NCBI RefSeq assembly: GCF_024138165.1 | Contig: NZ_CP100000.1 | Coordinates: 496,001 to 560,000, forward strand | DNA from: Halorussus vallis | GTDB taxonomy: Archaea; Halobacteriota; Halobacteria; Halobacteriales; Haladaptataceae | Direction: 5' to 3' | DNA length: 64,000 bases | Shown here: positions 665 through 8,593 of the stretch, piece by piece | Position numbering within the stretch: the stretch's first letter is position 1 | Layout: each line of letters begins with the position of its first letter | The notes under the pieces: generated by a model | The model's database searches: none | The model's input: the letters and a program-made list of their open reading frames with translations, nothing else | Told to the model about the DNA's origin: nothing | Program-made: the position numbers and the translations under genes

Positions 665-1342
665 ATGCCACTCAAACGGAGCAACCCGGCGACCGACTTC
701 GAGGAGATAGACCGCTGGGACGGCGGCGTCGGCTGGATCGCCCACCCCGACGAGTCGATGGAGCGCGCCAGCCACGCGCTCGCCGTCGACGGTGCGGTGT
801 GGGTGGTCGACCCGGTGGACGCGCCGGACGTGGACGACCTCGTCGGCGAGTTCGGCGAGGTCGAAGGCGTCGTCGTCCTGCTGAACCGCCACTACCGGGA
901 CGCCGACCGAATCGCGCGGCGTCACGACGTTCCCGTCTACGTCCCCTCGTGGTTCGACCGACCGGACGACGTGACCGCCCCGGTTCGGGGGTTCGAGAAC
1001 GGACTCCCCGAGTCGGACTACCGCCTGCTGAAGGTCGTCGACTCGTTCGGCTGGCAGGAGGCCGCCCTCTACGACGGCGAAACCGGGACGCTCGTCGTTC
1101 CGGAGGCGGTCGGGACCGCCCCGTTCTTCCGCGCGAAGGGCGAACGCCTCGGTGTCCACCCGATGCTCAGGCTGACCCCGCCGCGCGTGCTCCGCGGTTT
1201 CCGACCCGAGCGCGTGCTGGTCGGGCACGGCCGGGGCATCCTCGACGGCGCCGGCGACGCGCTGTCGACGGCGCTCGGCGGCGCGCGCCGCCGAGCGCCC
1301 GGCCTGTTCGTGCGGACGGTCCGGGCGCTCCTGACGAACTGA
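665..1342 (+). CDS. MBL-fold-like conserved haloarchaeal protein, metal site degenerate
   Basis: A 225-residue protein. The pattern resembles the metallo-beta-lactamase fold: a strand WVVDPVD, then VVVLLNRHYRDADRIARRHDVPVYVPSW where active enzymes have the HxHxDH helix, and VLVGHGRGI near residue 185 where the last metal His usually sits. The canonical HxHxDH is not present (RHYRDAD instead), so a two-zinc hydrolase site is doubtful. It may be a structural or regulatory relative. It lies 153 bp upstream of the CHAT-domain gene on the same strand. The family assignment rests on motif recognition only. Confidence 0.7.
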   Translation: MPLKRSNPATDFEEIDRWDGGVGWIAHPDESMERASHALAVDGAVWVVDPVDAPDVDDLVGEFGEVEGVVVLLNRHYRDADRIARRHDVPVYVPSWFDRPDDVTAPVRGFENGLPESDYRLLKVVDSFGWQEAALYDGETGTLVVPEAVGTAPFFRAKGERLGVHPMLRLTPPRVLRGFRPERVLVGHGRGILDGAGDALSTALGGARRRAPGLFVRTVRALLTN

Positions 1343-1495: not shown

Positions 1496-3556
1496 GTGAC
1501 CGTCTCGTTCGAATCGCTGGCCCGGCCGCCGGGCGTCGAGATACGCGACCGCATCGAGCGTCGGTCGTTCGCGCTCCACACCTCCGGGCGTCCGGACCCG
1601 CGACCGGTCGCGACCGACGACTTCGCGTTCCCCGTGGACGCCGCCGTCGCCGTGACCACCGACCGCGTCGTCCTGCCGCAGGTCGTCGTGGGCTACGTCC
1701 GGGACGACGAGGGGTCGATGGAACAGGAGATCGTCAACGGGACCAGCCGCGAGCTTCCGCCGGGGAGGTACGACGTGGAACTGTGCGCCCCGATGAAGGT
1801 CTACCTCCGGGTCGAGAGCGGAATCTCGGTCGCGGCCGACCGCGACCGCGTCCGACTCGACTTCGCCCCCGAAACCGAGGTGCGGGTCGGCGCTCGCTCC
1901 CACCACGAGCGCCCCGAAGCGACGGTGACGACCACCGCCGACCCGCGGGACGTGATGAAGGCCGTCTCGACGTTCGGGTCGGCGCTCAAGACCACCTCGC
2001 CCGAGCGGAGTTTCCCGACCCTGCGGGGACACCCGCCGCTGGTCGAACTCGGCGACGAACTCCGGATTCCGCCCGAACTCGACGTCCCGGAAACGGGCAT
2101 CAGGCTCGAACTGCCGCCCGAGCACCGGTACGTCTTCGTCGCGGCGCCGCTGGCGTTCTACCTCGGCGCCGAGGTGGTCCCCGGTTCGACGCCGCGACTG
2201 GTCACCGAAAGCGGATTCGCCTACGACCTCGACGGGCCGGAGGGCTACGAGCGGGCGGTCGAACGGACCCTGAAGCGGACGTTCCTCCTCGATTGCCTCG
2301 TCCGGACCGAGGGCTACTACGAGGTCGACCTCCACGAGCGAACCGAAATTGAACCGCTCGTCGACCTCGACTTCGCGGCGTTGTACGACGCGCCGCTGGC
2401 CGAGCGAATCGAAGCGTACCTCTCCGTTCCGTGGAGCGTCGTCGCCGACCACGTCCCGGCCTGGAAACTGACGACCCACGTGACGCCGACCGCGGAGAAC
2501 GTCGAGTCGCTCCCGTTCGTCGTGAACGACCTCGCGGTCGTGCGGACGCCCAGTCTCCGGACGCGCTCGCTACCGCGGCAGTCCGACGTCATCGGGGAGT
2601 TCGCCCGCGACTCCGAGTTCACCCGGAGCACGGCCGACTCGAGCGCGGAGATTCCCGTCGTCCGACCGGAGCGGTCGGACTCGGTCGAGGAGGCGTGGAT
2701 CGGCGACCACGCGCCGATGGACGCGAGCAAGGCGACGACCGCGGCGTTCAGGAATCGGCTCTCCCGCGACGTCTCGGCGGAGACGGTCGACATCACCGTC
2801 GTCTGCAACGACACGGAGATGGGCGACGAGCGCGACCTCGCGGCCGAGGTGTACGGTTCCCGCGAGAACCTCCCGTTCGACGTGACGGTCCGGCGCGACC
2901 TCACCACCGACGAACTGCGAGCGGTGCTCGAAACCGAGGCGGCGTTCCTCCACTACATCGGTCACATCGGCGAGGAAGGCTTCCGGTGCGCCGACGGCCA
3001 CCTCGACGCGACGACCCTGGAGTCGGTCGGCGTCGAGGCCTTCATCCTCAACGCGTGCAGGTCCTACGAACAGGGACTGGCGCTCGTCGAGGCGGGGAGC
3101 GTCGGCGGCGTCGTCACGTTGAGCGACGTCATCAACAGCGGCGCGGTCCGGGTCGGGAAGACGATGGTTCGACTGCTGAACCGCGGGTTCCCGCTGCGCG
3201 CGGCGCTGTCCATCGCGCGCGGCCGGAGCATCGTCGGCAACCGGTACATCGTCGTCGGCGACGGCAACGTCGACGTCGTTCAGACCGAAAGCGGACTCGC
3301 GGTGCTCCTCGACGTCGACACCGAGGGAACCGACTTCGAGGTAACTCCGAGGACACACGTCGCCAATCAGGGCGGGATGGGCGGGTTCTTCACGCCGCAC
3401 GTCGGCGGCGACGAGTACCACCTCGTGTCGGGCGAGCACGGACCCTTCTCGCTCACCCGGGAGGAACTGGCGCTGACGCTGAGCGCCGAGAACGTTCCGG
3501 TCAGAATAGACGGTGAGTTCGCGTGGAGTCGGTCTATCGACGTCGACTCGCTGTAG
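1496..3556 (+). CDS. CHAT-type caspase-like peptidase (C14/C25 clan), 686 aa
   Basis: A large protein whose C-terminal part carries the CHAT/caspase-like dyad. FLHYIGHIG provides His490 and FILNACRSYEQG provides Cys521, followed by GGVVTLSDVINSGAVRVGKT, as in CHAT domains where the post-Cys segment continues GA..V. The N-terminal ~400 residues are beta-rich and unrecognised; residues ~380-400 are a polar linker (RSDSVEEAWIG). About 85 residues follow the dyad domain. CHAT proteases are Cys peptidases used in separase-like, gasdermin-activating and CRISPR-linked (craspase) systems. No signal peptide or membrane segment is seen, so it is probably cytoplasmic. Translation starts at GTG behind a strong Shine-Dalgarno sequence. 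Upstream is an MBL-like gene on the same strand; downstream is a convergent membrane mini-protein. Confidence 0.75.
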   Translation: MTVSFESLARPPGVEIRDRIERRSFALHTSGRPDPRPVATDDFAFPVDAAVAVTTDRVVLPQVVVGYVRDDEGSMEQEIVNGTSRELPPGRYDVELCAPMKVYLRVESGISVAADRDRVRLDFAPETEVRVGARSHHERPEATVTTTADPRDVMKAVSTFGSALKTTSPERSFPTLRGHPPLVELGDELRIPPELDVPETGIRLELPPEHRYVFVAAPLAFYLGAEVVPGSTPRLVTESGFAYDLDGPEGYERAVERTLKRTFLLDCLVRTEGYYEVDLHERTEIEPLVDLDFAALYDAPLAERIEAYLSVPWSVVADHVPAWKLTTHVTPTAENVESLPFVVNDLAVVRTPSLRTRSLPRQSDVIGEFARDSEFTRSTADSSAEIPVVRPERSDSVEEAWIGDHAPMDASKATTAAFRNRLSRDVSAETVDITVVCNDTEMGDERDLAAEVYGSRENLPFDVTVRRDLTTDELRAVLETEAAFLHYIGHIGEEGFRCADGHLDATTLESVGVEAFILNACRSYEQGLALVEAGSVGGVVTLSDVINSGAVRVGKTMVRLLNRGFPLRAALSIARGRSIVGNRYIVVGDGNVDVVQTESGLAVLLDVDTEGTDFEVTPRTHVANQGGMGGFFTPHVGGDEYHLVSGEHGPFSLTREELALTLSAENVPVRIDGEFAWSRSIDVDSL

Positions 3557-3709: not shown

Positions 3710-3874
3710 GACAGCCGCAACTCCACTCGCCACCAATATAAATTTTTTGACAATAGGTTCGACAGATAATCGTCTGACGAGAAGCGGACAGTTGGCAGAC
3801 GATCGGAACGCGCTCAACGTTCGTCGCGGTAGCGGCGAAGACAGGGCGCTCCGTCACGTTGGGTGGGCGATGGC

Positions 3875-3880
3875 GTTATA
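3875..3880 (+). promoter_or_regulatory. TATA box placing a leaderless GTG start at 3904
   Basis: GTTATA is centred 26 nt upstream of the GTG at 3904. This distance is the usual TATA-to-start spacing for leaderless haloarchaeal mRNAs and rejects the longer upstream ATG. Confidence 0.55.
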
Positions 3881-3903
3881 CCCGAACGCGACCAAGCGAT
3901 GGC

Positions 3904-4317
3904 GTGGTTTACGTCACTCGGGGCCTCGTCGACGCGCTGCTCGAACTCGCGGCGGGGGCCGAACCGGAGGCGCTGACGATCGCGCTCGCGGTGACGCCCG
4001 TCGAGCAGTTGGAGGGCGAGGCCGACGCACCCGCGGGAACGCCGGTGTTCACGCACTTCTACCCGCCCGAGACAGGCCGGTCGCTGACCGCCGTGTTCGG
4101 CGTCGACCTCTCGATTCCCGCCGGACAAACCCAGGGCCGGTTCATCTCCCACCCGAAGGGGAACCTCGGTGTCGACAGGACCGACGACTTCGCCGAGGCC
4201 ATGCTGGTCGCGGTACCGCCCTGGGACGACGCATCGCTTGCCGCCTTCGACCGCTCGGGCCGTCGCCAACCCCTGGAGATCCTCGACGCCGAACCGCCGA
4301 CCGAGTCGTTGGCCTGA
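3904..4317 (+). CDS. conserved haloarchaeal hypothetical protein, possibly JAB/MPN-like
   Basis: A 137-residue protein from a GTG start reading VVYVTRGLVDALLELA. The middle contains THFYPPETGRSLTAVFGVDLSIPAGQTQGRFISHPKG followed by RTDDF, then VAVPPWDDASLAAFDRSGR. The GRFISHP...D arrangement faintly recalls the HSHP-x-S-x-D site of JAB/JAMM (MPN) isopeptidases, but the first His of HxHP is absent, so at best a degenerate relative. No membrane segment. I would call the function unknown. Confidence 0.7.
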   Translation: MVYVTRGLVDALLELAAGAEPEALTIALAVTPVEQLEGEADAPAGTPVFTHFYPPETGRSLTAVFGVDLSIPAGQTQGRFISHPKGNLGVDRTDDFAEAMLVAVPPWDDASLAAFDRSGRRQPLEILDAEPPTESLA

Positions 4318-7522: not shown

Positions 7523-8593
7523 ATGGACACGGAGCCTCCCAGCGAGCGCCGTGCGGTCCCCGAAACGGAGTGGTGTTTCGAGGCCGTAGAGGGCGTCTCT
7601 CGGACGTTTGCCATCACTATCGACGTGCTAGAGGAGCCGATGGCCTCGGCCATCTGCATCGGGTACCTCCTCTGTCGAGTCCCCGATACGGTCGAGGACG
7701 CCGGACACATCCCCGCCGACGAGCAGGCCCGACTGCTCGACGCCTACGACCGGGCGCTCGACCCCGACGACTCGACCGGGGTCGAGACGTTCCAACGGAA
7801 GGTCGAATCGTGGCTGCCGCCCGAGGACGAGTGCGACGACGACTGGCGGGTCGTCGCCGAGGTCGACCGCGCCTTCCGGGCGTTCGAGGCCCAACCGCCC
7901 TCGATTCGCCGGGCGGTCCGCGAACCGGTCCGCGAACTCGTCTCCGGGATGGAGATGTTCGTCGACCGCTACGCCGACGACGGCGGCCTGCGCATCCAGA
8001 CCCCGGGCGAACTCGAGGAGTACTGCCACTACGTCGCGGGCACCGTCGGCGAACTCATCACCAACCTCGCCACCCGGGGCGACGTCGACCCCGAGCGCGA
8101 ACAGCAACTGTACGAGCGCGCCGAGTCGTTCGGCCGCCTGCTCCAACTGGTCAACATCTCGAAGGACGTCTACCTCGACTACCACGAGGAGAACAACGTC
8201 TACCTCCCCGAGACGTGGCTCCGCGACGAGGGCGTCTCGCCCGACGAGGTCTGCGACCCCGAGAACCGGGCCGGCGTCGCCGCTGTCGTCCGCCGGACCG
8301 CCGACCGGGCGCGAGGCTACCTCGACGAGGCCCAGGCGTACCTCGAATCGGTCCCGCTGGAGCGGGGCAACACGCTCGCGGCGTGGGCCATCCCGTACCT
8401 GCTGGCGGTCGGCACCCTCCGGGAGGTCCGCGACCGACCGGAGGACGCGCTCCGGGAGGCCGGCATCAAGATCGCTCGCAAGGAGGTCCACGCGGTCATC
8501 GCGGCGTTCGCGGCGGGGGCCGACCGGGAAGCCGTGGGCGAGATTCGGGAGGCCATTGCCCGGGGGCCGCTCCACCGCACCGACGCGACGTGA
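7523..8593 (+). CDS. squalene/phytoene synthase family prenyltransferase
   Basis: A 356-residue enzyme that condenses two prenyl diphosphates head to head. SRTFAITI and the first Asp-rich motif VPDTVEDA are near residues 26-61. YCHYVAGTVGEL and the second motif LVNISKDVYLDYHEENNVYLP are near 170-235. The spacing resembles squalene/dehydrosqualene synthase more than haloarchaeal CrtB phytoene synthase, so farnesyl diphosphate to squalene is the likelier reaction (inference). C-terminal residues 235-356 are helical and lack a clear membrane anchor. An AT-rich box AAGCTTTTC is ~32 nt upstream of the ATG. Confidence 0.85.
   Translation: MDTEPPSERRAVPETEWCFEAVEGVSRTFAITIDVLEEPMASAICIGYLLCRVPDTVEDAGHIPADEQARLLDAYDRALDPDDSTGVETFQRKVESWLPPEDECDDDWRVVAEVDRAFRAFEAQPPSIRRAVREPVRELVSGMEMFVDRYADDGGLRIQTPGELEEYCHYVAGTVGELITNLATRGDVDPEREQQLYERAESFGRLLQLVNISKDVYLDYHEENNVYLPETWLRDEGVSPDEVCDPENRAGVAAVVRRTADRARGYLDEAQAYLESVPLERGNTLAAWAIPYLLAVGTLREVRDRPEDALREAGIKIARKEVHAVIAAFAAGADREAVGEIREAIARGPLHRTDAT

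Follow-up and report, generated by a model that had tools for sequence, protein, structure and literature searches.

A near-universal haloarchaeal family of caspase-like CHAT proteases with DUF7504 as a recurrent operon partner

The window analyzed here, 64,000 nucleotides of Halorussus vallis (contig NZ_CP100000.1, positions 496,001 to 560,000), encodes near its start a member of a near-universal, usually multi-copy and overlooked haloarchaeal family of caspase-like proteases, a finding that is well supported, as is the recurrence of DUF7504 as an operon partner of this family. The fold predicted for the protein and its His/Cys dyad provide good support for a CHAT-like clan CD protease. We put at about an even chance a more specific reading of the sequences, in which the protein would be a latent, Arg-specific protease of the CHAT/separase type that serves as a signalling output and processes both itself and DUF7504. 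The gene, its parts and its syntenic neighbors are the following.

1496..3556, + strand: CHAT/caspase-fold protease gene, 686 aa, GTG start
1496..2545, + strand: N-terminal domain (residues 1-350), beta-sandwich plus alpha/beta, the best-conserved part of the family
2546..2680, + strand: variable linker (residues 351-395), in which residues 368-382 are the sole segment with pLDDT < 50
2606..2629, + strand: candidate self-cleavage motifs EFAR371↓D372 and EFTR377↓S378 (residues 371-378), with cleavage inferred from motif conservation
2687..3295, + strand: CHAT/caspase-fold catalytic domain (residues 398-600), from profile matches, model and Foldseek
2810..2812, + strand: D439, predicted S1 anchor for P1 Arg, D/E in 115/118, between strand 1 and helix 1
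2963..2965, + strand: catalytic His490, from conservation in family alignments
3056..3058, + strand: catalytic Cys521, from conservation in family alignments
3296..3553, + strand: C-terminal beta subdomain (residues 601-686), G629 and W677 conserved
665..1342, + strand: upstream syntenic gene, 225 aa, without Pfam family, the -1 neighbor in the orthologous group of the window protease
3859..4317, + strand: downstream syntenic gene, 152 aa, without Pfam family, the +1 neighbor in the same orthologous group (21 loci)

Translation of 1496-3556 confirms the 686-residue ORF of the original prediction, with His490 in HYIGH490IG and Cys521 in LNAC521RSYEQG. An AlphaFold2 model built with 70 family members (pLDDT 88.6, pTM 0.89) contains the caspase fold on which that prediction had depended, placed around H490/C521, and is laid out as an N-terminal domain to ~350, a linker (~351-395), a catalytic domain to ~600 and a C-terminal beta subdomain. 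The top Foldseek matches in the PDB are separase, gingipain R, SAVED-CHAT and Csx29 (E 1.8e-7 to 1.4e-4), with caspase-11 also matched at E 3e-3; TM-scores of the full model are low because the catalytic domain alone can match. A viral structure library gave two matches below 1e-3, neither informative for the window protease.

The N-terminal part, earlier described as about 400 beta-rich residues, is shorter and more mixed in the model: it comprises ~350 residues that combine a beta-sandwich with alpha/beta structure and lead into a disordered linker. Residues 1-352 modeled separately (pLDDT 95.7) found no PDB chain with a global match by Foldseek, and the predicted domain is possibly a new fold combination. 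GH31 alpha-glucosidases were considered as a clue to its function and set aside, as the beta-sandwich likeness is local only (TM about 0.2). Mean column identity is 44% in the N-terminal domain vs. 38% over the whole protein, with R171, RGHPP 177-181, L219, Y222, A225, L259 and D266 conserved in the family alignment.

Profile evidence for CHAT membership comes from the family more than from the window protease, whose match to Pfam CHAT (PF12770, residues 450-577) scores 14.8 bits and is below the curated cut-off of 24, while a paralogue in the same genome exceeds it (24.1 bits). Among 70 family members, 24 match CHAT at E≤1 (best 6.9e-5) and three match Peptidase_C25. The other model proposed for the profile check, Peptidase_C14, had no match to the window protease at E≤10, nor was it among the families matched by the 70 members. 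NCBIfam, PADLOC and single-sequence PDB searches with the window protease were also without a match. The dyad is kept across 123 aligned homologues (His490 in 119, Cys521 in 118), and H490, C498, D500, N519, C521 and S523 are invariant in the 70-member alignment. Fold, dyad and conservation together uphold the CHAT/caspase-like reading, and the dyad is invariant in the family apart from one degenerate clade. Members of this clade (L163, L164, L165, L166, L266-L271), found mainly in one many-species genus (g7), have lost both the His/Cys dyad and the linker Arg motif, and judging from their sequences they are likely pseudoproteases. They keep the N-terminal motifs, which points to a separate role for the N-terminal domain.

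All 28 of 28 genomes of the taxonomic family have full-length homologues (4-20 matches each, some of them pieces of one gene), and in the order as a whole such homologues occur in 268 of 293 genomes, representing 78 of 87 genera. Beyond the order but within the phylum, homologues were found in one family only, at 23-29% identity (L300, L168 and L169; handles G300, G309, G318 and G327). The window genome has 8 matches, corresponding to 7 family genes, and the earlier picture of a lone gene was incomplete in this respect. Copies are mostly annotated as ‘hypothetical’, with a few in plasmid records named CHAT or caspase family. Three family genes lie in tandem at L141:5000-12251 (L141 genes 4, 5 and 6), which suggests recent local duplication. 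At the other extreme, genus g51 has exactly one copy in 15/15 species; we infer this genus to be Haloferax, several of its members being 90-96% identical over kilobases to a Haloferax alexandrinus plasmid.

The trigger and substrate of the protease had been left open. A survey of neighborhoods revealed a recurrent partner, DUF7504, and often HalX/receiver neighbors, at loci other than that of the window protease. When neighbors were clustered (100 fetched neighborhoods and further loci), DUF7504 was by far the commonest neighbor cluster of family genes (Pfam E 1e-25 to 1e-54). Some of these proteins carry an N-terminal HalOD1 domain (Pfam), and the aligned neighboring sequences have no Walker A motif; DUF7504 appears to be a degenerate KaiC-like protein, consistent with the account by Galperin and co-workers (PMC5847659) of inactivated KaiC-like proteins, HalOD1-iKaiC. 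Counted by six-frame HMM search, DUF7504 lies within 1.5 kb of 43 of 121 family genes, 35 times upstream on the same strand and in 34 of those within 170 bp. Five of the seven copies in the window genome have DUF7504 beside them; this genome has 16 DUF7504 loci in 5.05 Mb, and chance adjacency is therefore expected at about 1%. Another 37 sequences fetched with their upstream flank yielded 26 DUF7504 matches, and the association is distributed over several clades of the family tree. HalX or other receiver proteins are near 22 family members, and at L006 and L127 the protease, DUF7504 and a HalX-type or RR-like gene are consecutive on one strand (same order at L134). In a separate clade (L143-L162) the protease gene immediately precedes that of the transcription regulator TbsP (PF19138/PF23336), with glyA on the other side and often divergent. 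This clade has no DUF7504 neighbor and mostly lacks the strict linker motif described below; a functional link to TbsP is possible.

At sister loci (L083, L085) the gene order is ferritin-like gene, DUF7504, second protease, DUF5779, 225-aa gene, window-type protease and 152-aa gene. The window genome and several relatives lack the DUF7504-protease pair at this place, with no such pair separating the ferritin-like gene from DUF5779. L080 has kept DUF7504 and not the second protease; loss of the pair at the window locus is the simpler reading. This absence explains why no partner was visible when the window was read by itself, and any DUF7504 on which the window copy acts would have to come from another locus of the genome.

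Arg64 of caspase-3 and Asp163 of gingipain R hold the P1 residue from a common position that follows strand 1 and opens helix 1; separases have Asp or Glu at this S1 position, a P1 consensus of Arg, and cleave themselves (PMC4626109). In our model D439 sits between strand 1 (431-437) and helix 1 (440-454), a placement made by secondary structure, with 115 of 118 members having an acidic residue (D or E) there. With an acidic residue at the predicted S1-anchor place, the window protease would, by analogy, cut after Arg and not Asp.

Candidate sites of this kind are present in the linker, which varies strongly in sequence and length yet keeps an Arg motif. The pattern [FILVM][TVMLAH]R[SAG][ASTV] was set on discovery sequences (69/100) and then scored on 37 fresh ones, of which 21 contain it vs. 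1.2 expected from shuffled linkers; it occurs 10.2 times per 1000 linker residues and 0.30 times per 1000 in the rest of the proteins (34 times denser), all of these counts being drawn from related sequences and hence from non-independent events. A broader F-x-R element, defined after both sets were seen, occurs in 35 of the 37 fresh linkers. The window protease carries these motifs as EFAR371 and EFTR377-S378. Neither the strict motif nor F-x-R is found in the dyad-less clade, which is one clade and probably represents one event. In a variable loop of DUF7504, an Arg with two small residues directly after it is present in 34/35 discovery and 26/26 fresh sequences adjoining a family gene, in 15/31 non-adjacent copies and in 3/17 from genomes without the protease family. 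This Arg is 98% conserved and its left flank is variable, with an A/S/T-rich stretch of varying length following. A search for the same motif in a variable loop of TbsP, the 152-aa gene, the 225-aa gene and response regulators gave nothing convincing.

Cleavage after Arg, maturation by self-processing and cutting of the DUF7504 partner would form a coherent whole. The protease is envisaged as cytoplasmic and probably latent, an output of haloarchaeal signalling with an acidic S1 pocket (D439) suited to cutting after Arg. A signal passing through the N-terminal domain and DUF7504, a chain guessed from gene context, would switch the protease on; it would mature by cutting its own disordered linker at EFTR377↓S378 and/or EFAR371↓D372, and would then cut DUF7504 at the conserved Arg↓Ser/small site. 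Lysates of Haloferax did not measurably cleave trypsin, cathepsin and papain substrates (PMC3615174), a result compatible with latency of the enzyme and also with the absence of any such enzyme. The broadest form of the proposal is tentative and falls somewhat short of an even chance: that receiver/HalX and HalOD1-KaiC-like proteins control an Arg-specific CHAT family, present in up to ~20 copies per genome, that is matured in its linker and cuts DUF7504 at Arg↓Ser.

The strongest competing explanation, unlikely but deserving weight, keeps the signalling context and an active caspase-fold protease but gives the protease another substrate, with DUF7504 as its regulator or adaptor and the Arg-Ser motifs as docking or phosphorylation sites. 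TPR-CHAT reportedly binds Cas7-11, a model for DUF7504 in such an adaptor role. Operon pairing would fit any physical complex, as would the co-divergence of protease-DUF7504 pairs (Mantel r 0.85 vs. at most 0.39 in permutations), although linked inheritance would by itself produce such co-divergence. The constant neighbor of the TbsP-linked clade is a transcription regulator and not DUF7504, and the Arg is kept in 21 of 31 non-adjacent DUF7504 proteins; it could owe its conservation to a structural or phosphorylation context instead of cleavage. An adaptor role leaves unexplained, however, why the same motif of Arg and small residues appears in both linker and partner alongside a predicted Arg-type S1 pocket.

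A role in defence and a link to the caspase-like activity of Haloferax are both possible but less likely. Haloferax volcanii has a caspase-4-like, LEVD-cleaving activity without an assigned gene (PMC3615174), and the genus taken as Haloferax has its single copy in every one of the 15 species, so that the family might be the source of this activity, with a role in stress or cell death. We regard this as improbable: the position of the P1-binding Arg of caspases is Asp/Glu here, and it is the acidic D439, which predicts Arg and not Asp at P1, that disfavors the assignment. The named genomes searched with the window protease did not include H. volcanii.

There is a similarly small chance that the family acts as an anti-virus or abortive-infection effector, comparable to Craspase, SAVED-CHAT or gasdermin-linked CHAT proteases. 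The fold matches to SAVED-CHAT and Csx29, the lineage-specific expansion to many copies and the location of some copies on plasmids would be consistent with such a role. The gene had been described as lying outside any recognized defence locus, and this holds: PADLOC gave no match for the protease and nothing credible among its neighbors, and no gasdermin, STAND, SAVED or CRISPR gene was found among the neighbors of the window protease or of family loci. A PADLOC match to GajB (2.5e-4; window 7523-8593) is spurious, the gene being a squalene/phytoene synthase by Pfam. Phage records searched for the family protein were without a match, and near-universality, with part of the family in fixed housekeeping synteny (TbsP, glyA), also argues against defence. 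Least probable of all is that the protein serves as a scaffold without catalysis, its fold and dyad being retained for other reasons: in the dyad-less clade the N-terminal motifs persist while the catalytic half degenerates, but outside it neither H490 and C521 nor the residues around them vary.

If the Arg-specific signalling protease is confirmed, a protease output would be added to the archaeal KaiC/two-component network, with candidate substrates and cleavage sites supplied together, and a proteolytic switch would be a standard signalling output of haloarchaea. Haloferax is genetically tractable and has one copy per species, making both the mechanism and the question of caspase-like activity directly testable there.

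By the features examined, the window protease is not a separase, caspase or metacaspase. Separase (C50; Chaetomium, 5fby) is the top PDB fold match of the model, with about 16% identity over the match, and its S1 residue, which follows strand 1, is acidic, with Arg at P1 and self-cleavage (PMC4626109), a place that D439 of the window protease is predicted to take from secondary structure; the separase N-terminus, however, consists of helical repeats, whereas that of the window protease is beta-sandwich plus alpha/beta without a separase match. Gingipain R (C25) also matches in fold and takes P1 Arg via an Asp after strand 1 (PMC4626109), but it is secreted and bacterial, and the window gene has neither such a context nor the gingipain N-terminal region. 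SAVED-CHAT (8tl0) and TPR-CHAT/Csx29 (Craspase) share with the window protease a CHAT domain with LHxxGH and LNAC-type motifs, and 8tl0 is the best PDB sequence-profile match, a weak one (E 0.55) with the dyad aligned. Unlike these systems, the haloarchaeal family has no SAVED, TPR or CRISPR part and is partnered by DUF7504/HalOD1/HalX, and the window protease scores below the Pfam CHAT cut-off. Caspases and metacaspases (C14) likewise have the caspase fold with His before Cys, but caspases (C14A) have an S1 Arg and a Gln two before the Cys where the window protease has D439 and N519, and this Asn differs from the Gln or Asp of caspases/metacaspases. Archaea have been said to have no clear caspase homologues (PMC3615174), and a census with a metacaspase profile (HMM) found 5 of 114 archaeal genomes positive (PMC3501461); a caspase-fold family is now found in about nine tenths of the haloarchaeal genomes sampled.
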